From the IMG/VR virus record IMGVR_UViG_3300032288_006424, positions 1 to 20,174 of that record: DNA of 20,174 nucleotides; one strand, given 5' to 3'. A program made the translations under genes and the position numbers. The notes below the pieces were generated by a model. The model had not been told where the DNA came from. It was given only the letters and a program-made list of their open reading frames with translations, and made no database searches. Shown one piece after another: positions 1 through 20,174 of the stretch. The stretch comes from a virus. Position 1 is the stretch's first letter. Each line of letters opens with the position of its first letter.

Positions 1-108
1 GATATATCTATCGTCCTACACCCCATACAGAGCCGCAGTCAAGTTTCAAAACAGTTTAGCCTCAAACAGTATGCCAGTGGTGATCTGCTCAAGGGAGGAT
101 TCTGGTAA
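1..108 (+). CDS. 3' end of an unidentified upstream phage gene (partial)
   Basis: This frame is open from the first base and ends in TAA at 106-108, giving about 35 C-terminal residues that finish with the sequence YASGDLLKGGFW. Its stop overlaps the start of the next gene as TAATG, the same junction seen at 10223-10227, which supports this frame. A second frame is also open across the left edge but runs on to a stop at about 143, inside the next gene, and the third stops at 57-59. The fragment is too short to identify. In T4 the genes before gene 53 are head-completion genes, but nothing visible here shows this is one of them. It is probably a virion structural gene, judging only by its neighbours. 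Confidence 0.6.
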   Translation, partial: DISIVLHPIQSRSQVSKQFSLKQYASGDLLKGGFW

Positions 109-407
109 TGGCCGTTTACAATTCCACCAGTCCGTATTTTGATACCTCATACACCCAGTTTTATTTGGATGTGATGACCAATCGTCCCATACCCAAAGAG
201 GTCGATGATCAGATCTTGAAAATCACCGAAGTCTATCAATACCGACCGGACATGCTGGCCTATGACCTATATGATCTTCCGGAACTATGGTGGGTGTTTT
301 ATCAGCGCAATCCCAACACGCTCACAGCACCGCCCTGGGACTTTGAATCTGGCAAAGAGATTTATCTGCCAAAGATCACCACTCTCCGTGCCGTGCTAGG
401 ATTCTGA
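108..407 (+). CDS. 53: gp53-like baseplate wedge protein (short form)
   Basis: This 99-residue protein resembles T4 gp53, the wedge subunit that helps join the inner baseplate ring to the hub. The recognisable block is residues 46-70. It contains RPDMLAYDLYDLPELWWVF followed by the motif RNPN, and it lines up with the RPEELANAIYGNPQLYWVL stretch of T4 gp53. An acidic/aromatic segment with IYLP (residues 85-88) follows, as in short marine relatives. T4 gp53 is 196 residues, so this is about half that length; the C-terminal half of the T4 protein is absent rather than broken. The ATG at 108 overlaps the upstream stop and has a strong GGGAGGA ribosome-binding site at 93-99. The position before the hub genes matches T4 order (53 then 5). 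Confidence 0.82.
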   Translation: MAVYNSTSPYFDTSYTQFYLDVMTNRPIPKEVDDQILKITEVYQYRPDMLAYDLYDLPELWWVFYQRNPNTLTAPPWDFESGKEIYLPKITTLRAVLGF

Positions 408-3803: not shown

Positions 3804-6314
3804 ATGCCTGAGAATATAAATCGTACCAAAGGTAGATCGTCAGGATATAAGTTTGATCGAGGAGGAACTCCCTCTGAACCGGGCCCAGTCATTGGTATAG
3901 TTAAAAACAATGTAGATCCTTCTAGGTCTGGACGACTACAGGTCTATGTGGAACAATTTGGTGGCGAAGATGAAACCGACGAGAGCCTTTGGCGCACCGT
4001 CAATTATATCCCGCCGTTCTACGGGGTCACTCCTGGGGGCGGTGCCAACGGTGAAACAGCTGGCACCTTTACCGGCAATCAACAGAGTTATGGTATGTGG
4101 TTCACGCCGCCCGACCTTGGGACACAAGTCATCTGCTTCTTTGTTGCAGGTGATCCCAACCAAGGATACTATATTGGTTGCGTCCCACAGCCCGCCATCA
4201 ATCACATGCTACCGGCCATTGGTGCCAGCCGCCGATTTGATCTACAAAATGGTCCACAGGACAGTTATTTCGCCGGCGCCAGCCAACTTCCGGTCACTGA
4301 GATCAACAATGAAAATCAAGAAATAGCCGAAGATCCTAGATTCTTTGACAAGGTAAAGCCTGTACACAGTTACTTGGCTGGTATCATGATGCAGCAGGGC
4401 TTGATCAAGGATATTACCCGAGGTCCTATCACATCAAACGCCCAAAGAGAGTCACCGTCAGCGGTGTTTGGTATATCTACACCAGGACAGGCCATCTATC
4501 AAGGTGGTCTCAACGAGCGAGACATCAAAGGTCAACTTGAACGAGGGCAATTAAAACCACAGGATGTCCAAGTGATCGCTCGACGCGGCGGTCACACCAT
4601 AGTGCTAGATGATGGCGATCTTGAAGGACGAGATAATCTTGTTAGGATCCGCACAGCCAAAGGCCATCAGATCACCATGAGCGATGATGGTGACTGTTTC
4701 TATATCATACACGCCAATGGCCAGACTTGGTTGGAGTTTGGCAAGCAGGGAACTGTGGATGTGTTCAGTACCAACTCTGTGAATATCCGCACACAGGGCA
4801 CGATCAACCTACACGCCGACAAAGACATCAATATGTACGCAGGTGGTAGTTTCAATGTCAAAACTCCTGTGATGAAACTAGAAGCCGAAGCCAGCGTTGA
4901 TATCATCGGAACAGGTAAGATGACCTTGTACAGCAAGAATCTCATTGGCATCAAGAGTGATGGTAGTCTTAATCTGAAGAATTCGTCAGCAGGATCTTGG
5001 GACGCCGGTTCTAGCCTGAATCTCAAAGCAGGCTGTATCAATCTCAACTCCGGAGGCGGTTCTCCAGTAGATACACCTACCAATCTCAAAGATCTAAATC
5101 TAGTGGACACCAAATTTGTACAAGGTAGCGGCTGGACAGCACAACCAGGAACACTGAAAACCATAGTCACCCGCGCACCCACTCATGAGCCTTATCCTTA
5201 TCACAATCAAGGAGTGAATGCCACCACGAGTCTGGGCGTTACACCCGCCCAAGATCTTTCGGAAAAGACAGCCAATGCCCTGGCCAGCACTGAAACCTTG
5301 CCTGTGACCAATGGCATAGACACCGCTGCGTATCTTGAACAAACACCAGCAGAAATCTCAGTGGGATCATTGGACACCGGTCAAGTCACTGGTCTCATGG
5401 CACAAACAGCGGCTGATGTTGGCCAAGCAGCTGATGTGGTAAGCCTGGACAAAGGCATCGGAAAATATGGATTATCGCCCGAACAGTTGGAATCGTCGGG
5501 ATTCCTCAAACCCGGTACTGTGCAGACTTACTTGCAAGATCCTGCGCAACTGGAATCAGTGTTGTCATCACCGTCGGTGTGGACTGGCAAAGGTGATGTG
5601 GTTGGTTTGAATAACTTACTGGGAGATGTCAATCTCCAAAGCCTGACCCAGAACGAAATACTCAGCAGTAGCCTGCAAGGACTGCAGTCTGCCGGAATCG
5701 TCACTGGCCTAGAAGCACCGCAGCAATTGGCCGGGCTAGTGCAATCTGCCAGCAAATTTGGTGTTGACAATACCGTAGCATGGGTGCAGGGCATAGCACC
5801 ACCAGAAGTAGCAGCCAGCATCGGATCAGTGGCCAAAAATGCCCAGTATGCCGTGAATTTCGTCGATGAAAAAGCCAGCTCTGTGGTCACAGGATTGCAG
5901 TTAGGTGGATTCTCAAACACAGTGGCACGAGATGAAGTAGATCAGGCCCTGGCCGAAGTAATCGGCGACGACAAAATACCCACTCCTGACTTTAGTTCAG
6001 GACTTTACGGATCGACCCCAACTTCTGACCTGGTGTACGATGCTGCAGATGATGAACAGGTGCAAGAAGAGATCGATGTTGAACGAGAATCTCGAGGGCT
6101 GGCACCATTGACTAATCCAGCCACCGGTGAAATCTCTACCCGGGTCAGCGAAGCAGCCGATCCGCGGGCACAGACCATAACAAGGCTGCGCAACGAGATC
6201 CTTGATCTAAACACCATCATTGCCGGCCGTCGTCGGCGCGGGCAGGATACCACTATACAATATGCTGAACTGGCGCGGTTAGAAGCACAACTCAGTACCT
6301 TGCAAAACGGGTAA
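3804..6314 (+). CDS. 5: gp5-like baseplate hub / central spike protein, no lysozyme domain
   Basis: The 836-residue protein has an OB-fold-type N-terminal domain at about 27-145, with VIGIVKNNVDPSRSGRLQVY and PPDLGTQVICFFVAGDPNQG, matching the gp5 pattern of T4. Residues 262-418 are a spike-type beta-helix with short alternating strands, for example VDVFSTNSVNIRT and INLHADKDINMYAGG. T4 gp5 carries a lysozyme domain between these parts; here residues 146-260 are a linker with no lysozyme-like sequence. After the helix come the motif TRAPTHEPYPYHNQG (456-470), an Ala/Leu-rich helical domain (550-700) and a coiled coil (788-834). The last three parts are absent from T4 gp5. The protein should form a trimer at the tail tip that pierces the outer membrane. 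It starts directly after the previous stop, with purine-rich GAGAGAAG upstream. It may need a separate PAAR-type tip, which is not in this window. Confidence 0.87.
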   Translation: MPENINRTKGRSSGYKFDRGGTPSEPGPVIGIVKNNVDPSRSGRLQVYVEQFGGEDETDESLWRTVNYIPPFYGVTPGGGANGETAGTFTGNQQSYGMWFTPPDLGTQVICFFVAGDPNQGYYIGCVPQPAINHMLPAIGASRRFDLQNGPQDSYFAGASQLPVTEINNENQEIAEDPRFFDKVKPVHSYLAGIMMQQGLIKDITRGPITSNAQRESPSAVFGISTPGQAIYQGGLNERDIKGQLERGQLKPQDVQVIARRGGHTIVLDDGDLEGRDNLVRIRTAKGHQITMSDDGDCFYIIHANGQTWLEFGKQGTVDVFSTNSVNIRTQGTINLHADKDINMYAGGSFNVKTPVMKLEAEASVDIIGTGKMTLYSKNLIGIKSDGSLNLKNSSAGSWDAGSSLNLKAGCINLNSGGGSPVDTPTNLKDLNLVDTKFVQGSGWTAQPGTLKTIVTRAPTHEPYPYHNQGVNATTSLGVTPAQDLSEKTANALASTETLPVTNGIDTAAYLEQTPAEISVGSLDTGQVTGLMAQTAADVGQAADVVSLDKGIGKYGLSPEQLESSGFLKPGTVQTYLQDPAQLESVLSSPSVWTGKGDVVGLNNLLGDVNLQSLTQNEILSSSLQGLQSAGIVTGLEAPQQLAGLVQSASKFGVDNTVAWVQGIAPPEVAASIGSVAKNAQYAVNFVDEKASSVVTGLQLGGFSNTVARDEVDQALAEVIGDDKIPTPDFSSGLYGSTPTSDLVYDAADDEQVQEEIDVERESRGLAPLTNPATGEISTRVSEAADPRAQTITRLRNEILDLNTIIAGRRRRGQDTTIQYAELARLEAQLSTLQNG

Positions 6315-6322
6315 ATATCAGC

Positions 6323-6697
6323 ATGCCCACATTCATTGGATTCAACACTATCAATCAATACAAAAAATTCACCTTGGTGGATTTTGAACTGATCAAGCGC
6401 GATCTAGCCAACGCTTTTAATATACAGCAAGGCACCCTGCCTGGGCGTCCTGGATATGGCACCATCATGTGGAGCTATGTGTTTGAAAATCAGACTCCAG
6501 AAACTGAGCGTGCTATCCTAGCCGAATGCCAGCGAGTGGCCGGTGGGGATCCCAGGGTATATCTGACCAGCGCCAACTCTTATCCACAAGACAATGGCAT
6601 CTTGATCGAACTAGAAATACAAGTAGTGGCCACGACCACGGCCGAACGCCTGTCCATCTTTTTTGATCAAGAGACCCGCCGGGCCAGCTTCGTGTAA
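6323..6697 (+). CDS. 25: gp25-like baseplate wedge protein
   Basis: The protein has 124 residues, close to T4 gp25 (132). It belongs by appearance to the GPW/gp25 family, whose members nucleate sheath polymerisation by giving the first sheath ring a docking handshake. The family signature is the loop QQGTLPGRPGYGTIMWSYVF at 35-54, followed by a helix (residues 59-73) and two strands around ILIELEIQVVA. The family was once called 'lysozyme-like', but enzymatic activity is not expected. It lies 8 nt after the gp5-like gene, and its ribosome-binding site is weak, so translation may depend on coupling. In T4, gene 25 is in another cluster; here it sits next to its partner gene 6, which makes sense because gp25 and gp6 form the wedge core together with gp53. 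Confidence 0.9.
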   Translation: MPTFIGFNTINQYKKFTLVDFELIKRDLANAFNIQQGTLPGRPGYGTIMWSYVFENQTPETERAILAECQRVAGGDPRVYLTSANSYPQDNGILIELEIQVVATTTAERLSIFFDQETRRASFV

Positions 6698-6745: not shown

Positions 6746-9700
6746 ATGGCCAAGACTGCTAGACAAACCGCGATATTTGGTGTAGAAGACTGGAAAAGAC
6801 TGTACCAGACTTTCCGCGAAGCCGACTTCCAATCCTACGATTTTGAGACTCTGCGCAAGAGTTTTGTAGACTATCTCCGCGTTTATTATCCAGAAACATT
6901 CAATGATTACATAGAGTCATCGGAGTTTATCGCTCTGTTAGATGTCATGGCGTTTATGGGACAAGCCCTGGCATTCCGTAACGATCTCAATGCAAGGGAA
7001 AACTTCTTAGACACTGCCGAACGCAGAGATTCAGTGGTGCGCCTGGCCAACTTGGTTTCTTACACCCCCAAGCGCAACGAGGCAGCACAGGGATTTTTGA
7101 AAGTTTTTTCTGTTTCGACCACAGAAAATGTCATAGACTACAACGGTATAAACCTAGCCAATATCACAGTAGACTGGAATGATCCCACAAACGTTGATTG
7201 GTTAGAGCAATTCACGCAGATCATCAATGCTGCCCTGGTTGACAGCCAGAAATTTGGTCGTCCCGGCAACGAACAGAACATCCTAGGCGTGCGCACTTCT
7301 GAATACGCCATCAATCTAGTACCGGGCTTTTTGCCTGTGCTTCCTTATACTTCTACTGTAGATGGCATCAACATGCCGTTTGAAGCGGTAAGTTCCACCA
7401 GCGAAGGTCGCGATTATGTCTATGAACCAGCGCCCCGTCCTTCGGGAACTTTCAACGTCTTGTATCGCAATGATCAGTTGGGATTTGGATCGGACAACAC
7501 AGGATTCTTCTTCCTGTTCAAACAAGGTACATTGCAGAATCAAGATTTTAACTTGGCTGAAGCACTGACCAACCGTACAGTCAATATCAATATCGAGGGC
7601 TGTAACGACCAAGACCACTGGCTGTTTAAGTTAGATGATCTTGGCAGCATCGCCGATGAGTGGGATTATGTAGAGAGTATCTATGCTGGAGCAGTGGAAC
7701 AATTGCCCCCGGATCAGCGCCAATTATACAGCATCACCAGCCGAGCCAATGATCAGATCACTTTGACCTTTGGTGATGGTGTGTTTGCTGAAATACCGGT
7801 GGGCACATTCCGTGCCTATGTGCGTGCCAGCAACGGCTTAGAGTATATTATCAATCCCGAAGAGATGCAGGCCGTGGATCTCCAGATCAGTTATGTCAGC
7901 CGCTATGGTCGGCTAGAGACCTTGACTTTGGTCTGTGGCATCACTGAACCTGTGAGCAATGCGCAGGCACGCGAGACCATAGAAGAGATCAAGCAACGAG
8001 CCCCGGCCCGTTACTACACGCAGAACAGGATGGTCAACGGAGAAGATTACAACAACTTCCCATTCACCCGATACAATTCGATCATCAAGAGCAAGGCAGT
8101 GGCTCGCTCGGCAGTGGGTACAAGTCGCTACATCGATCTAACAGATGTCACTGGCAAGTATTCATCTACTAACATATTTGCATCCGATGGTTTGATCTAT
8201 AGAGAAAATCAACTTCCAACTTTTGATTTTGACTGGATCAACCGTAACGAGATAGTGGATGTGATCAACAATTCAGTAGAACCTCTGTTGCCCAGCCGAG
8301 GCTTCATACAGTTCTACTATGATCCTACGAATTTTCCTCGTGTGCCATTCACAGTATTCCAGCAGGGTTGGTTCCAGAGTACTCGATTGGTCAATGAGAC
8401 CACAGGTTATTTCTACATCAATTCGCCGGCACAACCTCAGCCCATCGGTGCCTACACCTCGGGCGCAAACAAGTACATCACACAGGCGGCCCTGATCAAA
8501 TTCGTTCCGCCAGCAGGATATTATTTTGACGCCAACAACAGGCTAGCAGCCGGGGTGCCCATTCGCGCCGACGAGAAATTGGTGATTTGGGCCACAGTCA
8601 CAGCAGTGGTATTGGATGGTACCAACAACGGATTGGGCAATCTCGAAGATGGTACCGGTCCTGTGACCATCAACAACTTCGTCCCTACCGGAGCCTTGGT
8701 CAGCCAAGTCATACCCAAGTTTGTCACTGACCTACCCTCTGCGCTGGAACAAAGCATGATCCAGCAGATTGAACTCTACAGAGATTTTGGACTGGGATAT
8801 GATTATCTTGGTACGGTCACGGGAACTGCTGGAACTTGGTACCTGATTACCTCCACAAATCTAGACAATAATGCTCCCTTCAGCCTGACTTATGCTGGCA
8901 ATACCACAGGTGCCGGCCTTGATGCGTCGTGGTTGATACAGTTTGTCACTGACGGTATAAATTATACCGTGACCAACAGGCAATTAGATTATCTTTGGGC
9001 ATCCGTGATCCAGACTAGATTTTTCTATGATGGCAGCCAAGAAGTCTATGATAGTCGCACCGGTCTAACCATTGCCGACTATATCCGAGCGCTTAAAACC
9101 AACAGCCGGCCTGACAGCAATGAACCGTTGACCGGAGATGTTGTCATGGATATCATCGCGCAACCAGTGGAGAGCGATGGCTTTGTCAATGATTATCAGG
9201 TAGTGGTCAGTTACAGTGACAGTGATGGAGATGGAGTAGCCGACGATCCAGATTTCTTTGATACACTGGTAGCACCCACGGTCAATGCTTCCCAGAAAAA
9301 AGTTTTCTTGGAATTGTTGACCGATACAGATGGACTAGAAAGATATCTCCCAGTGGCAGCCGGAGTAATCAATACAAGTTACGCCACCCTGGATGAAATA
9401 GAATTAGTCAAAGCACAGTTCATCGATGGGCAGTTATTTTACACGACCACCGAAGGTTATTTCTATAAACTAGTTATAACCACGGTCAATGGTATAGTAA
9501 ATCGCACCTTGGTTGAGCAGACTGCCTATATCAGCCGCACCGGTCGGCAGAGTTTGTATTTCCAATATAGACACAACAGCCCATTGACCAATGTCATAGA
9601 CCCCGGAGCGACCAACATCATTGATCTTTATGTGGTTACCCAAGAATACTATACCCAATATCAAAACTACATCAAAGATACCACTGGCACAGTACCTGAA

Positions 9701-10225
9701 CCTGCTATCCCCACCATTGCCCAACTGACCACGGCCTACAGTGGTCTCAATGACTACAAGATGATATCAGACAATGTGGTCCTAAATTCAGTGCTATTCA
9801 AACCTTTGTTTGGTGCCAAAGCCGCACCTGAATTGCGCGGTGTGATCAAAGTGGTGCGGGCACCCAATACCACGGCTTCGATCAGCGAGATCAAGAGCCA
9901 GGTCGTGGCAAACATGAATGATTATTTCAGTATAGACAAATGGGATTTTGGTGACACATTCTTCATGAGCGAGCTTTCGGCTTTCTTGCATGAGCGAATT
10001 GGATCTATCATATCTTCTGTGGTCTTGGTACCACTGAATCCTCTCAAAACATTTGGCGATCTCTATGAAATACGATCGGCACCCAATGAAATATTTGTTA
10101 ATGCCGTGACTGTGTCCGATGTAGAAGTCATTGATGCACTCACGCAGTCTGAACTCAGGACACAGTCTACTGTGTCAGGACTATATCCCACTGAGAACTC
10201 TTTGAGCCAAACAGGTGAATACTAA
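6746..10225 (+). CDS. 6: gp6-like baseplate wedge protein (baseplate J family), very long
   Basis: The 1159-residue protein resembles gp6, the wedge subunit that dimerises to form the inner baseplate ring and switches shape at contraction. The N-terminus carries the gp6 block ALAFRNDLNARENFLDTAER (74-93) and VVRLANLVSYTPKRNEAAQG. A baseplate-J-type core follows with LTFGDGVFAEIPVGTF (from about 340) and QRAPARYYTQNRMVNGEDY (417-435). The C-terminal region has LRGVIKVVRAPN (from 1030) and FMSELSAFLHERIGSIIS. T4 gp6 has 660 residues, so about 500 extra residues are present, mostly in the middle (roughly 450-1000). One acidic loop there, DSDGDGVADDPD (825-836), looks like a calcium-binding loop. 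A GAGGAA site at 6738-6743 and a late-promoter-like element precede the start. The stop overlaps the next start as TAATG, implying coupled translation. Confidence 0.9.
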   Translation: MAKTARQTAIFGVEDWKRLYQTFREADFQSYDFETLRKSFVDYLRVYYPETFNDYIESSEFIALLDVMAFMGQALAFRNDLNARENFLDTAERRDSVVRLANLVSYTPKRNEAAQGFLKVFSVSTTENVIDYNGINLANITVDWNDPTNVDWLEQFTQIINAALVDSQKFGRPGNEQNILGVRTSEYAINLVPGFLPVLPYTSTVDGINMPFEAVSSTSEGRDYVYEPAPRPSGTFNVLYRNDQLGFGSDNTGFFFLFKQGTLQNQDFNLAEALTNRTVNINIEGCNDQDHWLFKLDDLGSIADEWDYVESIYAGAVEQLPPDQRQLYSITSRANDQITLTFGDGVFAEIPVGTFRAYVRASNGLEYIINPEEMQAVDLQISYVSRYGRLETLTLVCGITEPVSNAQARETIEEIKQRAPARYYTQNRMVNGEDYNNFPFTRYNSIIKSKAVARSAVGTSRYIDLTDVTGKYSSTNIFASDGLIYRENQLPTFDFDWINRNEIVDVINNSVEPLLPSRGFIQFYYDPTNFPRVPFTVFQQGWFQSTRLVNETTGYFYINSPAQPQPIGAYTSGANKYITQAALIKFVPPAGYYFDANNRLAAGVPIRADEKLVIWATVTAVVLDGTNNGLGNLEDGTGPVTINNFVPTGALVSQVIPKFVTDLPSALEQSMIQQIELYRDFGLGYDYLGTVTGTAGTWYLITSTNLDNNAPFSLTYAGNTTGAGLDASWLIQFVTDGINYTVTNRQLDYLWASVIQTRFFYDGSQEVYDSRTGLTIADYIRALKTNSRPDSNEPLTGDVVMDIIAQPVESDGFVNDYQVVVSYSDSDGDGVADDPDFFDTLVAPTVNASQKKVFLELLTDTDGLERYLPVAAGVINTSYATLDEIELVKAQFIDGQLFYTTTEGYFYKLVITTVNGIVNRTLVEQTAYISRTGRQSLYFQYRHNSPLTNVIDPGATNIIDLYVVTQEYYTQYQNYIKDTTGTVPEPAIPTIAQLTTAYSGLNDYKMISDNVVLNSVLFKPLFGAKAAPELRGVIKVVRAPNTTASISEIKSQVVANMNDYFSIDKWDFGDTFFMSELSAFLHERIGSIISSVVLVPLNPLKTFGDLYEIRSAPNEIFVNAVTVSDVEVIDALTQSELRTQSTVSGLYPTENSLSQTGEY

Positions 10226-13200
10226 TGGTCCAGCGCCGCACTGTTGACTTACTGCCTGAAATTTTCCGCACCGAAACTAATCGTCAGTTTTTGGCTGCCA
10301 CCTTGGATCAACTCACGGCCGAGCCTAATCTCAAACGCACACAGGGATATGTAGGTCGGCGTGTGGGACCTGGGGTCAACCCCGCAGATAATTATGTCAC
10401 TGAACCCACAGCAGTCCGTCAAGATTATCAACTAGAACCTGCTGTGACTTTCTTCGAACCTGAGACCAATCGGGCCTTGGATGCCATCACCTATCCTGGC
10501 ATGATAGATGCGCTGAACTTGCTGGGAGCCAACACTCAGAGACAAGATCGTTTATGGGAAAGCCAATATTATACCTGGGATCCGTTCTGTGATCTCGACA
10601 AGTTTGTAAACTACAGCCAATATTACTGGTTACCATCTGGCCCTGACTCGGTAGATGTTTTCACTGGCATAGTACCGTTGACCGACGCCTGGGAGGTTAC
10701 TCGTGGACAGACCTCCTATACTTTCAGTGATGTTGCCGGAAACAATCCAACTTTGACTTTGGTCCGCGGTGGAAATTACACATTCACTGTGAATCAAACT
10801 GGAACTCCTTTCTACATCCAGGCTGCCCTGGGGATTTCAGGCCTGATGCCTGGCACTGACAATATCAGCAGCCGCGGAGTCATGGGTGTGCTCAACAACG
10901 GTGAAGACAATGGCACTGTGACCTTTGATGTACCGTTCAAAGATGCGCAGAGTTTTTACACCAACATGCCTTACACAGGTCAAGCAGCCGGCAAGCCCGC
11001 TGGTACAGTAGATTTGCTGACCAATCTCAACTTTGACCAGATCAACAATGTCTATGTCAACACTTTCTTGGCACAGAACCCATCGGGCATAGATGGAGTC
11101 ACTGGACTTGATGGCTTGACCGTGGCATTCTTGAATCAAGAACCAGATCCTGAGTCCGGTGGTTGGCTGCTTACTACACAGTTTGACCCTGAATCACAGA
11201 TGTCATTTACCGTGCCCACAGGCAACAGATCTGGATCGATATCAGTGGTCAGTGCCACATTTGACAATATCAATGATACTGCTACCTTCTTCTTTGCTGC
11301 TATTTCGGGCAGTGCTCCTTTTGTGCCAGGATGCCAGATACAGGTAACCGGTGCCAGCCCCAGTGATTACAATGGTACTTGGACAGTTTTGTCATGCACG
11401 ATAGACTCAGTCACTGTGGCGGCCAATGGAATAACAGCATCGTGGCTGGCAGGCGGCGTCATGCAAGGACTTGGTTTATTCCAAAATTTAACGACCACGA
11501 CCAGCGGTTCCGGGGTCGGAGCACAGATAACTGTGAACTTGCCATTGGGCTCTGGTTCATATGCAGACATTGATGCTTCTGTCATAGTCTCTTCGCCTGG
11601 GTCCGGATATAACGTTGGAGATATTCTCACGATATCCGGTGATCAATTGGGAGGCACTACTCCGGCCAATGACCTATCGTTGGTAGTGACTGCCAACAGC
11701 AACAACGGACAGATTGGTAGTTTTGACACACAGACTTATGACCAAACTACTGTACTCTCGGTAGCAGATCGATACAGTATCTGGTTGATCCAATATCAAT
11801 ATGACAATGATGGCAATGCTATATTGCAATTGACACCCGTGCTGCCAGTCTCCCAACTGACCAAATTTAGGATTTTATTTGGTACCCAGTATTCCAACAC
11901 CGCATGGTTTAAAAACGCAATTGGCTATTTCGAACAGATTCCTCTGTTGACCGCTAGCCTGGATACTTTGTATTACCAGGATGCTACTAATCCTTTGTTG
12001 TTTGGAAAGATACAGTTGATCGATCAATCAGATTTCACACCGATCAATGTTGACGACATCATTGGCGCTAAAAATTATACCAGCCCAAACGGGGTAATTT
12101 TCACCAATGGACTCAAAGTCCAGTTCCGTGGGACTACTAACCCGACGAACTATAGCAACCTTGAGTACTATGTAGAAGGTGTAGGAAGTGGACCTGGGAT
12201 AGACGCAAGGGTAGGGTTCATTGATGGAGAAGCCTATTTTGGTCCTTGGCACTATTATTTGGGACAAAAATTAACAGGAGCTGTCCATACCGACACTACC
12301 TTCCAGCAATACATCTACGACACAGTAGCGGAAAGTCTTGCCAACCAAGGTGCTGGATATCCCGAGGGCGCACCATTGCCTAACGAACCGCAGCAAGGAG
12401 CCACCTTGGGCAATGGCATAAGACTGCTGCCAGTCACAGATTTTGTCACACCTGAGACTTATACAGTCAGCGCCACTGTACCTTTTGATAGCTTACCGTA
12501 TGATGTAGGAAACTACGACTCTACATTGAATGCGCCAGTAGTTCCAGACTATCTGACAGTAAATCGGGCCAGCCGAGATCTTAATGCTTGGACGCGAAGC
12601 AATAGATGGTTCCACAGAGATGTGATCCAAGCCACTGCTGATTACAATAATCAGATCGCTGTGTTTGACAATGCACAAAGAGCTAAAAGGCCTGTGATTG
12701 AATTCCGCGCCAACATGCGATTGTGGGACTTTGGTACCCAAGGCAAACAGCCAGTCAATATCATAGATTTCGGCCAGAGCAATGCATTACTCAATGTCAA
12801 CGGTAGCACCTTTTATGCCACTGATGGATATGCTCTAGTCGATGGGTCTACTGTGATCTTTGCCGCGGACGAAGATCCAGATGTGCGTAATCGCGTGTAT
12901 CTAGTGAGATTTATCGATCCCGACGGCCTAACTACTACACAGCCCGTGATCGATCTTGAACCTCTTACTTTTGGCCAGGCCTTGGTAGATCAAAATGTGG
13001 TCATACTCAGCGGCAATACACTGCAAGGCAAATCTTATAGATTCGATGGTGCTGACTGGATCCTGGCGCAACAGAAAACCAGTGTGAATCAAGCGCCTCT
13101 ATGGGATGTGTTTGACAGCCTGGGACGCAGTCTTGGCGACCGCGACACCTATCCTTCGACTACTTTTGAAGGCAGCAAATTATTTGGTTATGCGCTGGGA

Positions 13201-16200
13201 GGAACCAGCCAAACTGATCAAGTTCTAGGATTTGCTTTAAAATATCTCAACATCAACAACGTTGGCGATATAGTTTTTGACAACTATTTTTATAATGATA
13301 CATTTTTGTATGTGCAAAACAATGTCAGCACCACTGAAAACATCAGCATTGGTACAGCACGCCAGTACATTGATAGAACTCTATTTTCCGGCCTTATTGG
13401 CTGGCAGACAGCAGCACAAGAAAATCGTAGCAGACAAATTTTCCGATTTGTCTACGACGGAACTCCGTTGATTTTAGATGTGCCCATTGATCAGGAATCT
13501 ATATTTGCTCCTCTGCAGATATTCCAAGGCACAGAGTTTATCGATCCCACACAGTACACAGTGAACTTGCCCGGAAATGGTAGCACAGTCATAACCTTGA
13601 CTGATTCCCCGATCATCGGTGAAATCATTGAAGTACAGGCTATCAGCGATGTGGCATCAGAGGTAGCGTTTTACCAAGTTCCTTTGAACCTAGAAAATAA
13701 TCCTCTCAATGAGGATTCCACAGCATTTACACTGGGCACGATCCGCACCCATTATCAAGGCATTGGTCAAAATCTGCGCACTATACAGGGTGCCATTGAT
13801 GGTGCCAATAACACCAGAGATCTTGGAGACATCCTAATCTACGGAGACAACATTGTACAACACAGTGCTCCTTTGACGCTGGCAGGTAGTTTCTTGCGCC
13901 GGCGACAGTACGAAGCCGCTGCGTCTATACAGTTTAACAGCAACGAGTACCAAAAATTCAAAGCCAGATTGATCTCTTTGGCTGCCAATGGAGACTATGT
14001 CAACAATACACCTACGCAGGTGTTGGATTCAGTCTTAGACGAGATATCATCAACTCGAACTGACATCAGCCCATTTTACTGGTCAGATATGTTGCCACAC
14101 GGTGGAAACTATACTACTACCACTTATACCTATTCGGTTATCTCTACACCGACTTTCCCTACGCAACAGACTTACAATTTTACTCAAAGCAATTACCAAG
14201 CGTTGAGCGTTTACCTTAACGGCACTTTATTACAACGCGGATCTGATTACACTGTGGCCGAAGACGCTGCCAACTTCACGATCACTTCTGCATTGATTGT
14301 AGGTGATGCTATTGTTGTAAGAGAATACTCTGCTACCTATGGAAGTTATGTTCCTAATACACCAACCAAGATGGGCTTGTATGGAGCTTACCGACCAGAA
14401 ATCTATCTCGACGAAACCTACATCACTCCAACCATGTGTATCCGTGGGCACGATGGATCGGTTACCGTGGCCTATGGTGATTATCGTGACGATGTGTTGC
14501 TAGAGTTTGAAAATCGTATCTTCAATAACATAAAGATAGTAACTCCCATACCATTGACTGCAGACGAGGTCATCCCAGGCCAGTTCCGCGAGACTGAGTA
14601 TTCATTGTCTGAAATCAATACCATACTGGCACCAGATTTTTTAAGTTGGGTAGGATGGAACAAACTCAATTATACCGAGCAGACCTATCTCAACGATGAT
14701 GGATTCACCTGGAACTATAGCCAAAGTGCAAACAAATTATCCAGTGATCCTTTGCCTGGAGGTTGGCGAGGTATTTACAACTATTTTTACGATACTATCT
14801 ATCCCAATACCAGACCATGGGAGATGCTGGGATTCAGCGAAGAACCCACTTGGTGGCAAGATTACTACGGACCGGCTCCGTATACCTCGGGCAACACCGT
14901 GCTATGGCAAGATCTTTCCCAAGGACTAGTTCGAGATCCCAATGGTGAGTATATCTTGCCTCAGTACATACGACCTAACTTGCTGGATGTCATACCCAGT
15001 GACACGGAAGGTGCTTTGATACCTCCCATCGATTCTACCGTGGGCAACTATGATCGCACATCGTTCCGTCGCAGTTGGATATTTGGTGACGATGGCCCAG
15101 TAGAGAATGCCTGGCGTACTTCTTCGGCGTGGCCTTTCGCTGTAATGAGATTATTGATGTTAGTGAAACCGGCCAAGTTTTTCAGCCTGTTTGGAGACAG
15201 AGATCGATATGTCTATGACGAGACTCTAGGCCAATATCTATGGAACCAGAGATATCGACTGGATTCTGCCAATCTCAGTCCGTTGTATGGCGATGGCACC
15301 AGCCGCGCTAGTTATATCAACTGGGTCATAGACTACAACCGACAGTTGGGTGTAAACAGCACGACAACATTGACTGATTTTCTAGCCAACACTGATGTGC
15401 GCTTGGCCTGGCGAGTGGCTGGGTTCACTGATAAGAGACTGATGAAGATCTACACCGAGAGATCTACTCCCAATAGCCAGAATGAAAGCTTGTTGCTGCC
15501 AGACGAAAGTTATCAGATATTGCTGTACAAAAATCAGCCTTTCCAGCAGGCAGCATACAGTTCGATCATCGTCCAGACTACCACAGATGGTTGGCAGGTT
15601 TTTGGCTACAGCGCATTCACTCCTTACTTCCAGATCTTGACCAGCGTGCCCAATGGCAACACATTCTTGGTTGAAGCCGGTGGTGCTTCTGCACGCATCG
15701 CTTTAGATCACAGCAGCGATGTGGTGCAAGTCCCCTATGGTTATACCTTCACAAATCGTACTGCAGTCTGCGATTTCATCTACAGTTATGGACTGTTTTT
15801 GTCTCAACAGGGCTTTGTAGTTGACACACAGGAAAATGGATACACCATGGATTGGACCCAGATGTGTCAAGAGTTCTTGTATTGGTCAAATCAAGGATGG
15901 GCTCCTGATTCTATAATCAATCTTAACCCCGGAGCCCTCAAGGTATCAGTAACTAGGCCAGGCGCGGTGGTAGACAGTCTCACAGATCTGCGTCCAGAGA
16001 ATCTCATACTGAATCAAAATCGGCAACCGTTGCCTTCGGGTGAATTAGTCATTGGTCGACTGGATAATACCTTTACGGCACAGACACTGAGCAACAATAC
16101 TATCAATTACCTCAATGTCAGCCTTACTTCCTACGAACATCTAGTGGTACTTGACAATGTGTCAATATTTGCTGACTTGATATATCAACCAGTCACAGGC

Positions 16201-19200
16201 GCTCGGCAAAGCCGAGTTTTAGTGTCGGGCTATATTTCCGGTGATTGGAACGGTACAGTCAATGCTCCTGGATTTGTTCTCAACCAGACTGATAGCATCA
16301 TTGAGTGGATACCCAATCGGAAATACACCAAGGGACAGATAGTCAAATTCAAAAATGAGTACTGGGCTGCTTCGACCATCATTGAACCATCACAGGAGTT
16401 TGATTATACGCTCTGGCTCAAGAGTGATTTTGATGAGATCATGCAAGGTCTATTGCCCAACGCGGCCAACGCCAGCGACCAGTTGGCCGGTGCTTACTCG
16501 GTGTTTTCGGCCAACCTCGAGGGAGAGGTAGATTTATTCAGCTACGGACTCATTGGATTCAGACCGCGAGAGTATATGCAGGCTCTCAACATCAGCGACA
16601 CCAGCCAAGTCCAACTATATCAGCAGTTCTTGGGCAGCAAAGGCACCTTGCGCTCGGCCGAGATTTTCTCTTATGCAGATCTAGGCAAAGAGACCGCCCA
16701 GTATGATATCTTTGAGTATTGGGCTATCAATCGTGCAGAGTATGGTGCCACCGCCAATAGAAATTACATCGAGTTCAGGCTTGAGCAGCAGAACTTGTTG
16801 TCGGATCCCTCTACATTGCAGGTCATTGATCCTACGGAATCCAGCCAAGCTGATCAGACACTATTGGTCAGTGGAATCTGGAAATCCAGCGACACAATCA
16901 CATCACCAGATTATCTTCCCACAACATTGCTACCGGTTGCAGACGCGGTTTTCCCCACAGCCGGTTATGTAAATCTCGATGATGTGGATTTTTCAATCAT
17001 GGAACTGGGCAACGCTGCATCAGAAGAATTCAATATCACGGGCAGCGGAACAACAGTATGGGTGGCCAAAGTCAACAACTACGATTGGAGTGTGTATCGA
17101 CTGCAATCATTGACAGCCACAGTGCTTGAAGTGTCAGACAATCTTGATGGCAGATCGTTGGCACAGTTTGACATGGATCACGGTTTGGTAGCAGGTGACT
17201 GGGTAATAATCCGTGAGTTTGATCCAGTGGTCGATGGCTCTTATAGAGTTATATCTACTCCTTCGTTATCGTCGATTATCATCAGTCTGTTGATCACAGG
17301 ACAGCAGACGTCGATCACAGGCACCGGCATAGCCTTTACCTTGCAAACAGCCAGGGTGGCACAGGCATCTGATGTGGTCACATTGCCCTATGCCAATAGT
17401 GTTGTGTCGGGCAACAAAGCCTGGGTAGACAACGACGGAACCGGGCACTGGGAAGTGCTTGAAAAGACCGAAGTATTCCAAATAAATCTCGATACTACCA
17501 TAGATGCCGAAACAGCAGTGGCCAACAACCGGTTTGGCGCCAGCGTGACACAGGGATTCAATAATCTAGCAGCCATGGTAGGAGCTCCAGGATATCTAGT
17601 GTCAGGCGATGACAGTGTGCTCAAACCTGCTGGTGGGGTTTACAATTATACCAAGGCCACGGAAGCCGCCAGTTTTGAATTTAACTTTATACAGACCTTA
17701 GATACTGCGGATACTGCCGGGTATGGATCTGCCATGGATATGGGCGATCAAACCTGGGCAGCTGTGGGAGCTCCGGGCAGCGATGCCGATCGTGGTTACG
17801 TGGCCATGATCTATAATCCGCCTACCAGCACAGCCTTCCTACAGAAGCAACTGCTAATCGGCGACATCGATGGCAGATTTGGAACCAGTGTTGCTGTTGC
17901 CAACAATGAGCGCTGGTTATATGTAGGTGCCCCCGGTAATGATCAAGTTCATGTCTATGCCCGGATAGATGTTGAATCGCAGATTATCACTTATGTGACC
18001 ACTGGATTAACTTCTGTCTTTAATTACGACAACAGCATCGTGGTAGATAGCGGATCCGCAGCCGACCAACTGGTGGTCGTGCTCAACGGTCAAGAGTTAG
18101 TACCAGGAGTAACCTATACCACCGGTGCAGGATCAGTCATACTAACATCAGTTCCAGTTGTTGGACAGTCTTTGTATATCGCCCGCCGCACAAATGACAC
18201 TTACATTGGTGATGGTAGCACCACCACCTTCTTTGTTGACAACATCTATACCTTGAACAATCTAGTGAACGAACCGGAAGCAGTGACCGTTTTAGTAAAC
18301 GATGTGCTGCAACGACTCAACATTGATTATGTGATAACACCCTCTGGAGAAGTTGATTTCTTCTCTGGCCCTGCACTTGGCACAGCCATCAAGCTGATTT
18401 CTGGTACCTACTTCCGTAGCGTGCATACCATACAAGGTACTGGTTTGTCAACTCCAGCACAGTCTGGATCTAATTTTGGTCGGTCAGTGGCGACCACAAC
18501 AAATGGCAGGATGGTAACCATTGGTTGCCCGGATCAGGATGTCACGGTAGATGGTGACACTTACACCGGTGCTGGTCAGGTATTCATGGTTGGTCGCACA
18601 GTGCAAAACATCCAAGTAACCAATGCCACAGTTGAAATCTATACTTCTGTGAGAAATTTCAGTAGCATCAATGCTCCCATTGCTGTGCAGGTCAACGGAG
18701 TCTATCTTGTCGAAGACAATGGATACAATCTCAATCCACAGTATTCTGTGAATTATACCAACGACACAGTGACTATATCTGATTATGATCTCGCTGTGGG
18801 TGATGTCATTACCATCGAGTCCAACAATTTTGATCTTGTGCAAGTTATCACATCAGATAATCCTCTTGAAGGCGCACAGTTTGGATGGGATGTTGATCAG
18901 TGCTTCAACAATTGCAGCATCTATCTAGGTGCACCCAGAGACAGCGCTGTTCTACCTCAGGCTGGTAAAGTAGAATTCTGGCAGAATGCACCCAGGGTAT
19001 TTGGTACTATAACCAGTCCGGTAGCCGGTGAGATATCATTGACTGCCGATCAGTATCTTGGCATCAATGGTTATTTGGTACAACTCTCAGATCCTGTGAC
19101 ACACAACAGCAGCAACACATATATCGCAGGCGATCTTGTGAAGTCCGGTAGCAATCTATTCCGTGCAAGGATTGCAGTACCCGCAGGTACTGCTATAACA

Positions 19201-20174
19201 GACACTACATATTGGCAGCCCATCAATTGGAGTCGGGTCATGTCGCAAGATATTGTTGATGCGGCAGTGCCCAATGCCACCTCATCAGTGACCATGGATC
19301 TGGATTTTGTTGGAGATGGGACTACTAAACAGTTTACTGTTGGCACACTATATGATGCCACCGACACTCCTCTAGTCTATGTCAACAATGTCAAGAAGGT
19401 CTTCAATGTTGATTATACCTTTGATGTGGATGCAGGCACCATTGATTTTGTGACAGCCCCAGCAGATAATTCAATAATTGATATCATAGGAAGCCAACTG
19501 GTGATTTCTGTGATCAACACGGATGCAGCACCTGTTGGCAACAAACTAGAGATCACACCAGGAAGTACCACCAATGGCAGCGGTGCAGGATCACTGTTCC
19601 AGATTCTGGAGTTTGACCAAGAAGATTATGCCCACATCCAGACACTGACCAGCCCAGTGCCGCAGGATTTTGCCCAGTTTGGCTACAGCGTTTTCATCAG
19701 TGATAGAACTACCGATTTAGTAGTTGGCGCTCCAAATGCATCACCTATCCAACCTACTACCTTCGACAACGGAACCACATACTTCGATTCTGAGAGCACG
19801 AATTTCATAAATGTCGTCAGCAACAGCGGAACCGTCTATACTTTTGATTATCTATCATCATCCACCAATGCGGCCAACAACCCTGGGCAGTTTGTCTTTG
19901 GACAACAGATTTTCAATCAGACGATCGCCAGCGGGGATGAATTTGGTTCGGCAGTAAATTACACCACGGGCATTTTGCTAGTGGGCTCACCAGGCACTGA
20001 CATTGACAATGAAATCTCGGCCGGCGATATACATGAGTTTGATAATCTATCACAAAGTCCTGCCTGGGCTGTGATCCGCAGGCAAGTACCAGTGGTTGAT
20101 ATCGATCTCATGAATACTGTGTTCATGTATGATCGGTTAAGCAATGCCACAAAACAGTATTTTGATTTCTTTGA
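10225..20174 (+). CDS. Giant virion structural protein at the gene 7 position (partial, 3' end outside window)
   Basis: The frame starts with ATG at 10225, overlaps the gene 6 stop, and has AGGTGA at 10213-10218. It stays open for 3316 complete codons to the window end. Residues 1-150 (LLPEIFRTETNRQFLAATLD, then DKFVNYSQYYWLPSGPD) are of a type I know from large structural proteins after gp6 in marine T4-like phages. Further landmarks are a beta segment TLVRGGNYTFTVNQTGTPFY (176-195), GSGYNVGDILTISGDQLGG (459-477), VPNTPTKMGLYGAYRPEIYL (1379-1398), and GPVENAWRTSSAWPFAVMRL (1625-1644). Two carbohydrate-binding-like motifs (2028-2064, 2966-2997) and seven FG-GAP blades (2436-3272) follow. T4 gp7 has 1032 residues and I see no direct similarity to it, so the gp7 role rests on position only. 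Likely roles are peripheral wedge scaffold and receptor contact. The visible end (VVDIDLMNTVFMYDRLSN) is a conserved-looking block, so much more sequence probably follows. Confidence 0.85.
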   Translation, partial: MVQRRTVDLLPEIFRTETNRQFLAATLDQLTAEPNLKRTQGYVGRRVGPGVNPADNYVTEPTAVRQDYQLEPAVTFFEPETNRALDAITYPGMIDALNLLGANTQRQDRLWESQYYTWDPFCDLDKFVNYSQYYWLPSGPDSVDVFTGIVPLTDAWEVTRGQTSYTFSDVAGNNPTLTLVRGGNYTFTVNQTGTPFYIQAALGISGLMPGTDNISSRGVMGVLNNGEDNGTVTFDVPFKDAQSFYTNMPYTGQAAGKPAGTVDLLTNLNFDQINNVYVNTFLAQNPSGIDGVTGLDGLTVAFLNQEPDPESGGWLLTTQFDPESQMSFTVPTGNRSGSISVVSATFDNINDTATFFFAAISGSAPFVPGCQIQVTGASPSDYNGTWTVLSCTIDSVTVAANGITASWLAGGVMQGLGLFQNLTTTTSGSGVGAQITVNLPLGSGSYADIDASVIVSSPGSGYNVGDILTISGDQLGGTTPANDLSLVVTANSNNGQIGSFDTQTYDQTTVLSVADRYSIWLIQYQYDNDGNAILQLTPVLPVSQLTKFRILFGTQYSNTAWFKNAIGYFEQIPLLTASLDTLYYQDATNPLLFGKIQLIDQSDFTPINVDDIIGAKNYTSPNGVIFTNGLKVQFRGTTNPTNYSNLEYYVEGVGSGPGIDARVGFIDGEAYFGPWHYYLGQKLTGAVHTDTTFQQYIYDTVAESLANQGAGYPEGAPLPNEPQQGATLGNGIRLLPVTDFVTPETYTVSATVPFDSLPYDVGNYDSTLNAPVVPDYLTVNRASRDLNAWTRSNRWFHRDVIQATADYNNQIAVFDNAQRAKRPVIEFRANMRLWDFGTQGKQPVNIIDFGQSNALLNVNGSTFYATDGYALVDGSTVIFAADEDPDVRNRVYLVRFIDPDGLTTTQPVIDLEPLTFGQALVDQNVVILSGNTLQGKSYRFDGADWILAQQKTSVNQAPLWDVFDSLGRSLGDRDTYPSTTFEGSKLFGYALGGTSQTDQVLGFALKYLNINNVGDIVFDNYFYNDTFLYVQNNVSTTENISIGTARQYIDRTLFSGLIGWQTAAQENRSRQIFRFVYDGTPLILDVPIDQESIFAPLQIFQGTEFIDPTQYTVNLPGNGSTVITLTDSPIIGEIIEVQAISDVASEVAFYQVPLNLENNPLNEDSTAFTLGTIRTHYQGIGQNLRTIQGAIDGANNTRDLGDILIYGDNIVQHSAPLTLAGSFLRRRQYEAAASIQFNSNEYQKFKARLISLAANGDYVNNTPTQVLDSVLDEISSTRTDISPFYWSDMLPHGGNYTTTTYTYSVISTPTFPTQQTYNFTQSNYQALSVYLNGTLLQRGSDYTVAEDAANFTITSALIVGDAIVVREYSATYGSYVPNTPTKMGLYGAYRPEIYLDETYITPTMCIRGHDGSVTVAYGDYRDDVLLEFENRIFNNIKIVTPIPLTADEVIPGQFRETEYSLSEINTILAPDFLSWVGWNKLNYTEQTYLNDDGFTWNYSQSANKLSSDPLPGGWRGIYNYFYDTIYPNTRPWEMLGFSEEPTWWQDYYGPAPYTSGNTVLWQDLSQGLVRDPNGEYILPQYIRPNLLDVIPSDTEGALIPPIDSTVGNYDRTSFRRSWIFGDDGPVENAWRTSSAWPFAVMRLLMLVKPAKFFSLFGDRDRYVYDETLGQYLWNQRYRLDSANLSPLYGDGTSRASYINWVIDYNRQLGVNSTTTLTDFLANTDVRLAWRVAGFTDKRLMKIYTERSTPNSQNESLLLPDESYQILLYKNQPFQQAAYSSIIVQTTTDGWQVFGYSAFTPYFQILTSVPNGNTFLVEAGGASARIALDHSSDVVQVPYGYTFTNRTAVCDFIYSYGLFLSQQGFVVDTQENGYTMDWTQMCQEFLYWSNQGWAPDSIINLNPGALKVSVTRPGAVVDSLTDLRPENLILNQNRQPLPSGELVIGRLDNTFTAQTLSNNTINYLNVSLTSYEHLVVLDNVSIFADLIYQPVTGARQSRVLVSGYISGDWNGTVNAPGFVLNQTDSIIEWIPNRKYTKGQIVKFKNEYWAASTIIEPSQEFDYTLWLKSDFDEIMQGLLPNAANASDQLAGAYSVFSANLEGEVDLFSYGLIGFRPREYMQALNISDTSQVQLYQQFLGSKGTLRSAEIFSYADLGKETAQYDIFEYWAINRAEYGATANRNYIEFRLEQQNLLSDPSTLQVIDPTESSQADQTLLVSGIWKSSDTITSPDYLPTTLLPVADAVFPTAGYVNLDDVDFSIMELGNAASEEFNITGSGTTVWVAKVNNYDWSVYRLQSLTATVLEVSDNLDGRSLAQFDMDHGLVAGDWVIIREFDPVVDGSYRVISTPSLSSIIISLLITGQQTSITGTGIAFTLQTARVAQASDVVTLPYANSVVSGNKAWVDNDGTGHWEVLEKTEVFQINLDTTIDAETAVANNRFGASVTQGFNNLAAMVGAPGYLVSGDDSVLKPAGGVYNYTKATEAASFEFNFIQTLDTADTAGYGSAMDMGDQTWAAVGAPGSDADRGYVAMIYNPPTSTAFLQKQLLIGDIDGRFGTSVAVANNERWLYVGAPGNDQVHVYARIDVESQIITYVTTGLTSVFNYDNSIVVDSGSAADQLVVVLNGQELVPGVTYTTGAGSVILTSVPVVGQSLYIARRTNDTYIGDGSTTTFFVDNIYTLNNLVNEPEAVTVLVNDVLQRLNIDYVITPSGEVDFFSGPALGTAIKLISGTYFRSVHTIQGTGLSTPAQSGSNFGRSVATTTNGRMVTIGCPDQDVTVDGDTYTGAGQVFMVGRTVQNIQVTNATVEIYTSVRNFSSINAPIAVQVNGVYLVEDNGYNLNPQYSVNYTNDTVTISDYDLAVGDVITIESNNFDLVQVITSDNPLEGAQFGWDVDQCFNNCSIYLGAPRDSAVLPQAGKVEFWQNAPRVFGTITSPVAGEISLTADQYLGINGYLVQLSDPVTHNSSNTYIAGDLVKSGSNLFRARIAVPAGTAITDTTYWQPINWSRVMSQDIVDAAVPNATSSVTMDLDFVGDGTTKQFTVGTLYDATDTPLVYVNNVKKVFNVDYTFDVDAGTIDFVTAPADNSIIDIIGSQLVISVINTDAAPVGNKLEITPGSTTNGSGAGSLFQILEFDQEDYAHIQTLTSPVPQDFAQFGYSVFISDRTTDLVVGAPNASPIQPTTFDNGTTYFDSESTNFINVVSNSGTVYTFDYLSSSTNAANNPGQFVFGQQIFNQTIASGDEFGSAVNYTTGILLVGSPGTDIDNEISAGDIHEFDNLSQSPAWAVIRRQVPVVDIDLMNTVFMYDRLSNATKQYFDFF
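16201..16220 (+). other. Terminator-like stem-loop inside the giant gene
   Basis: CTCGGC (16202-16207) pairs perfectly with GCCGAG (16211-16216) across an AAA loop and is followed at once by TTTT (16217-16220). A G-T wobble could add a seventh pair. The shape is that of a short intrinsic terminator, but it lies in mid-gene within codons for ARQSRVL and the T-run is only four long. It may be chance, a pause site, or an RNA-processing structure. Confidence 0.35.
16306..16416 (+). other. Carbohydrate-binding-like motif in the giant protein, copy 1
   Basis: Residues 2028-2064 read WIPNRKYTKGQIVKFKNEYW and then end near FDYTLW. The spacing of aromatic residues (W, Y-x-x-G-x-x-V, Y-W, final W) resembles the short CBM5/12 (chitin-binding type 3) fold seen in chitinases and many phage tail proteins. 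Binding of a sugar is inference; the aromatic pattern is what can be seen. Confidence 0.45.
17530..20040 (+). repeat. Seven FG-GAP beta-propeller blades in the giant protein
   Basis: Seven blades share an F-G-x-S/A-V strand, then 15-17 residues to G-A-P-G or a variant, then a G-x-V-Y-x-F-like strand. They begin at residues 2436 (RFGASV), 2499 (GYGSAM), 2551 (RFGTSV), 2750 (NFGRSV), 2885 (QFGWDV), 3151 (QFGYSV) and 3239 (EFGSAV). The matching GAP motifs include VGAPGYL, VGAPGSD, VGAPGND, IGCPDQD, LGAPRDS, VGAPNAS and VGSPGTD. The form fits the FG-GAP_2 type better than the calcium-binding integrin type, since no DxDxDG loop lies between FG and GAP. Spacing is 52-63 residues for the first three blades, then stretches to 199, 134, 266 and 88 because other modules are inserted. 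Seven blades could close one propeller, but more may follow past the window. Confidence 0.8.
19120..19215 (+). other. Carbohydrate-binding-like motif in the giant protein, copy 2
   Basis: Residues 2966-2997 read YIAGDLVKSGSNLFRARIAV and close with the pair YW. The Y-x-x-G-D-x-V start, a central aromatic and a closing Y-W resemble CBM5/12-type modules. It sits in the long insertion between FG-GAP blades 5 and 6, just before small beta module 6, so it could be displayed as a loop domain on the propeller. Function is inferred. Confidence 0.45.

Follow-up and report, generated by a model that had tools for sequence, protein, structure and literature searches.

The closest described counterparts of the protein studied here are, with regard to fold, the heads of the integrin alpha chains (alpha-M, alpha-4, alpha-V and alpha-IIb), which are built of seven FG-GAP blades. 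Integrin-type propellers bind their ligand on one face, and the integrin I domain is placed between blades 2 and 3. FG-GAP propellers have already been annotated in phages and in large eukaryotic viruses. Stand-alone FG-GAP proteins from two sister-group genomes, namely the Atu_ph07 gp320 'hemagglutinin' and Phosso XYS97288, XYS97289, XYS97266 and XYS97267, share FG-GAP_2 repeats with the protein under study and are partly encoded beside tail genes, but they are products of their own genes and not part of a giant baseplate-cluster protein. The gp320 gene corresponds to positions 5019-6200 of the stretch L282, and two of the Phosso (L283) FG-GAP proteins exceed 3,000 aa. With regard to the protein that carries the propeller, the closest counterparts are the PHROG 10938 giants (PA5oct gp355, Atu_ph07 gp180, PBECO4 gp538, GAP32_230 and SCTP-2 gp140), which have a homologous core and C-terminal part and the same baseplate-cluster position but are without the propeller. 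The T4 baseplate wedge protein gp7 is similar in gene order, being encoded directly after gp6; however, it is 1032 aa long and no profile similarity or fold match to the giant core was detected. In the open literature, no report joining FG-GAP repeats with phage baseplates or tail fibres was found. As far as that literature shows, three things are new: a propeller fused into a giant protein of the baseplate cluster, the fact that this fusion has become fixed across a large clade, and the empty site described below. The propeller-bearing giant is a new architecture made from known parts: an ancient insertion has fixed, within a protein of the baseplate cluster, a fold known best from the adhesion receptors of animals.

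The record IMGVR_UViG_3300032288_006424 is a virus contig of 20,174 bases, and the window, that is the whole stretch of DNA analysed, is the full record. The giant open reading frame codes for 3316 aa and is still open where the window ends; since longer relatives of the protein are about 4,700-4,770 aa at full length, about 70% of it lies within the window. The start of the giant gene is overlapped by the stop codon of the gp6-like gene, and gp53-, gp5-, gp25- and gp6-like genes lie upstream, which agrees with the preliminary description of a propeller inside a protein of more than 3300 residues that begins at the end of gene 6 in a baseplate gene cluster. The genes of the cluster and the core of the giant protein are as follows.

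108..407, plus strand: gp53-like baseplate wedge subunit (phrog_7145, E=6.5e-22)
3804..6314, plus strand: gp5-like baseplate hub with a Phage_base_V OB domain (Pfam and PHROG matches)
6323..6697, plus strand: gp25-like baseplate wedge subunit (PHROG match; Pfam match below cut-off)
6746..10225, plus strand: gp6-like baseplate wedge subunit (phrog_10646, E=7e-274; phrog_219, E=4e-26)
10225..20172, plus strand: giant virion (baseplate-cluster) protein (phrog_10938, E=7.6e-220), about 4,700 aa in longer relatives
14335..16284, plus strand: residues 1371-2020 of the giant protein, the conserved core, common to all cultured jumbo-phage homologues examined

A tblastn search with the giant protein retrieved 59 phage records, made up of the PA5oct group, Phosso, SCTP-2, Atu_ph07 and the Rak2-like group. 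The core has homologues in the giant virion proteins of PA5oct, Phosso, SCTP-2, Atu_ph07, PBECO4, GAP32 and others, and this homology, extending over most of the family profile, makes the protein a member of PHROG 10938. Gene order, the PHROG assignments of the neighbouring genes and the homologue PA5oct gp355, which is flagged ESI-MS/MS in its record, led us to infer that the giant protein is located in the baseplate wedge. The PHROG label of the family ('head and packaging, virion structural protein') and the missing fold link to T4 gp7 would also fit a protein whose gene merely lies next to the baseplate genes. Such a protein could be a different virion component, say a whisker or a long fibre, and the propeller would be one of the domains it contains. 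This reading is considered quite unlikely, because in six of the eight isolates that were examined the giant homologue comes directly after a gene annotated as baseplate wedge (the exceptions are SCTP-2 and Vibrio phage 2.275.O, where the gene before it lacks that name) and because part of the C-terminal region, a repeat region, matches PHROGs named baseplate wedge and hub subunits. Weighing faintly in the same direction, a CBM5/12-like (chitin-binding-like) fold predicted in the core at residues about 2023-2068 (window 16291-16428) matches chains of contractile-tail baseplate structures, the best being a baseplate chain of Agrobacterium phage Milano (Z 8.1 over 45 residues).

The relation of the core to T4 gp7 was examined at the sequence and fold levels. 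Comparison by hhalign with a six-member gp7 alignment gave a probability of 0.6%, and the core profile had no match among PDB sequences at E<=10. The core model (window 13597-17094, pLDDT 82), searched as one large model, matched nothing in the PDB at E<=0.001, with no gp7 among the matches listed. Consequently, the placement in the wedge is based on synteny and PHROG labels, and the modelled region may possibly represent an undescribed fold. In the passages of the MIJ3 paper (PMC6892783) that were consulted, no function is stated for the giant homologue.

Seven strict [FYW]G..G[ASC]P motifs are present in the giant protein, at residues 2437, 2500, 2552, 2751, 2886, 3152 and 3240, spanning nt 17533-19942, whereas 2000 shuffled versions of the protein gave a mean of 0.087 motifs and a maximum of 2. 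The Pfam family FG-GAP_2 (PF14312) matched the giant protein with a score of 32 bits (E=1.4e-7), above the cut-off of 23. From blade 1 to blade 7, the FG-to-GAP offset is 16, 15, 16, 16, 16, 16 and 14 residues, and the length for each blade is identical across 62 relatives, while the distance from blade to blade varies between about 52 and 266 residues because of inserts in blades 3, 4 and 5. An AlphaFold2 model of residues 2393-3316, made from a 62-sequence alignment, reached a pLDDT of 88.4 and a pTM of 0.88, and nearly all the top Foldseek matches of the propeller model in the PDB were integrin alpha chains. The VIA-align superposition on integrin alpha-M (Z 40.9, 2.7 A, 358 residues) covers model residues 24-892 and runs from integrin residue 1 onward; the four integrin heads named above (Z 37-41) share with the model the seven blades, the fold and the register from the N-terminal strand. 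On the basis of one predicted model per region, the propeller is modelled as a closed seven-bladed ring of four-stranded blades. Because of the strand order in the model, the N-terminal strand is taken as the fourth strand of blade 7; by analogy with integrins, this strand, at about residues 2419-2427, most likely completes that blade and so closes the ring.

The seven FG-GAP blades first reported are thus borne out by motif counts, profile search and structure prediction alike. The constant spacing of 15-17 residues first ascribed to them stands insofar as the FG-to-GAP offset is fixed for each blade, but the range is 14-16 and the distance between blades is not constant. The extent given at first (17530-20040) falls slightly short of the whole module, which occupies about nt 17473-20088. 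Further blades past the window, for which a search had been proposed, were not found: the record stops at 20,174, longer relatives show seven at most, and seven is the maximum blade count in any protein. The parts of the module are as follows.

17401..17472, plus strand: left flank motif W-V-D..W-V-EK (residues 2393-2416), after which the module is inserted
17473..20088, plus strand: entire propeller module (residues about 2417-3288), lacking in L166 and the cultured homologues
17479..17505, plus strand: N-terminal strand, putative fourth strand of blade 7 (from the strand list, the alignment range and integrin analogy)
17527..17694, plus strand: blade 1, FG at 17533 (model and motif)
17716..17859, plus strand: blade 2, YG at 17722 (model and motif)
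17872..17967, plus strand: blade 3, strands 1-3, FG at 17878 (strand 4 at 18409-18435)
17980..18405, plus strand: insert 1, separating strand 3 of blade 3 from strand 4, apparently a pair of small beta-rich domains
18469..18600, plus strand: blade 4, strands 1-3, FG at 18475 (strand 4 at about 18820-18849)
18601..18810, plus strand: insert 2, separating strand 3 of blade 4 from strand 4, beta-rich
18874..18987, plus strand: blade 5, strands 1-3, FG at 18880 (strand 4 at about 19627-19647)
18994..19608, plus strand: insert 3, separating strand 3 of blade 5 from strand 4, beta-rich
19672..19911, plus strand: blade 6, FG at 19678 (model and motif)
19936..20043, plus strand: blade 7, strands 1-3, FG at 19942 (model and motif)
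20089..20172, plus strand: right flank motif (PVVDIDLMNTVFMYDR...) opening the conserved C-terminal part, which is continued in relatives

Despite its fold, the phage propeller differs from integrin alpha heads in several respects. It is only about 18-20% identical to them, it is part of a viral protein and it has no known beta subunit; an alpha/beta heterodimer with a MIDAS-bearing beta subunit and a membrane anchor is implausible given the virion context. Calcium-type DxDxDG turns, present in integrin blades 4-7, were found between strands 1 and 2 in none of the seven blades of any of the 62 relatives, and the propeller was therefore not filed as an integrin. Its inserts are placed differently from the integrin I domain, each of them separating strand 3 from strand 4 in blades 3, 4 and 5. 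The corresponding loops measure 147, 73 and 213 residues here; in 61 relatives they range over 139-260, 66-80 and 94-217 residues, so that the inserts are always present, and by integrin topology we take them to lie on one face of the disc. A Pfam scan of the inserts returned nothing but a sub-threshold match of the second half of insert 3 (19273-19608) to the T7 tail-fibre N-terminal domain (PF03906, E=4.7e-5, 23.5 bits against a cut-off of 25.2), with no significant family match for insert 1.

Alignment of the giants showed that the N-terminus, the core (about 650-2250) and the C-terminal part are in common, whereas the propeller region is absent or replaced by unrelated sequence in all eight cultured relatives examined. 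At this site the isolates carry some other sequence of about 160 to 460 aa or, in the case of Atu_ph07 and Phosso, a different repetitive stretch, and the part after the propeller is conserved in all five isolates tested. A blade profile, for which nothing above 5 bits was obtained in shuffled proteins, found no blade in the eight isolates. In the uncultured relative L166 (IMGVR_UViG_3300025458_000019), 38 aa separate the flanks (residues about 2155-2193), compared with about 870 in L002. L166 represents a natural empty site, a propeller-less relative inside the propeller clade, and its state is best explained by a later loss of the module. Residues about 200-650 of the giant protein (window about 10825-12172) form a second long stretch that is absent in the cultured homologues; it has no Pfam match.

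Relatives of the propeller region were found in at least 355 IMG/VR stretches, near-duplicates included. A DNA-level and tblastn search of 50,697 phage records gave no match to the region, and none of 40 candidates from the prokaryote genomes searched was a relative. In a quick core tree of 113 sequences (supported by SH-aLRT only, and with rows taken as the best 80 hits of two queries rather than as a random sample), a branch with SH-aLRT 100 parts 95 rows from 18 rows without any blade, the latter including all isolates in the tree. On the 95-row side, 50 have six or seven blades, 43 have one to five recognisable blades and two have none; because the blade profile derives from relatives of the window, the counts given for distant rows are to be taken as minimum values. 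A single gain and a single loss of the module at the base of the clade both fit this unrooted tree, which does not tell them apart. Core and propeller distances are strongly correlated (Mantel r=0.88, reached by 0 of 999 permutations), which shows that the two evolve together and that the propeller is an old, vertically inherited insertion and not a swapped cassette. Cassette swapping is thus supported neither by the core tree nor by this correlation. FG-GAP_2 matches are confined to the giant frame in ten of ten large propeller-bearing records; Atu_ph07 and Phosso, two cousins lacking the propeller, carry FG-GAP repeats in other genes.

All propeller-bearing phages are uncultured contigs known from sequence alone. 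The explanation that we favour, with moderate confidence, is that these uncultured jumbo myophages possess a giant protein whose long-inherited integrin-alpha-type propeller serves as a peripheral platform on the wedge and binds a partner. A module of about 870 residues has been inserted into the giant virion protein whose gene comes next after gp6, and the two have long been co-inherited. The module is predicted to fold as an integrin-alpha-type FG-GAP beta-propeller, a closed ring of seven blades that has no calcium loops and bears beta-rich inserts in blades 3-5, and it would hang off the baseplate wedge as a rigid platform. Of these points, the motifs, the fold prediction, the limits of the insertion, the empty site, the distribution and the joint inheritance come directly from the data. 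It is regarded as peripheral because a relative does without it, and since it is rigid, has conserved flanks and is dispensable for the giant protein (isolates, L166), a peripheral binding platform is the best reading. The module probably binds something, and it would act by binding either a cell-surface component at landing or a virion part such as a fibre, the former being slightly more likely.

The preliminary description had seen in the propeller a host-recognition surface that is part of the baseplate. An integrin-alpha-type propeller in a baseplate-cluster giant was indeed found, but the variation is not concentrated on one face, the module is inherited with the core and L007 has separate tail-fibre-like genes downstream of the giant gene; an adhesive role and the docking of another virion part are both possible. 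A narrower version of the favoured explanation, in which the propeller is fixed on the baseplate and serves as the surface for adhesion or for binding a host receptor, touching an envelope glycan or protein at landing and perhaps helping to trigger contraction, is tentatively possible. It is consistent with the integrin-type fold and its one-faced ligand binding, with the dispensability of the module for the giant protein as such (L166), with the greater divergence of the propeller (mean identity of 44%, compared with 60% for the core) and with the presence of FG-GAP-like folds in other viral proteins, such as a PaBG protein annotated as tail fibre. However, loop lengths and entropies vary on both faces and no hypervariable top face was observed, so that no binding surface can be pointed to; moreover, receptor-binding modules are often exchanged, whereas this one was inherited vertically, and the tail-fibre-like genes of L007 are separate. 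Going further, an integrin-like adhesion head that is part of the wedge itself and repeated around the baseplate in a widespread clade, and that would sense or grip the cell surface directly and couple contact to baseplate switching in place of fibres, is judged unlikely.

A second narrower version of the favoured explanation, namely a structural dock or brace that would hold fibres or adjoining wedges with no direct host contact, is somewhat doubtful. The retention of the propeller throughout a clade, its invariant blade-turn lengths, its limit of seven blades and its close tracking of the core argue for such a role, as do the FG-GAP repeats encoded separately by cousins without the propeller (Phosso, and Atu_ph07 beside two genes annotated as tail sheath). 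On the other hand, the cultured relatives and L166 make a giant protein without it, and no interaction partner was identified.

Under the favoured explanation of a partner-binding platform, the consequences depend on the partner. If the propeller binds host surfaces, its receptor surface would not be swappable in the manner of a fibre; if it docks fibres, it would show how giant wedges get elaborated. The propeller also provides a clade marker for a large group of uncultured giant phages and defines in them an architecture that had gone unrecognised, and the empty-site relative L166 permits a comparison with and without the module.

Past the window, repeats of the form GGSGYT.PP.V.V.G are present in the C-terminal part of the giants L002, L004, L005 and L008 and match PHROGs that carry the names baseplate wedge, hub and head closure. 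In Atu_ph07 and Phosso, repeats of a similar kind occupy the region that replaces the propeller.
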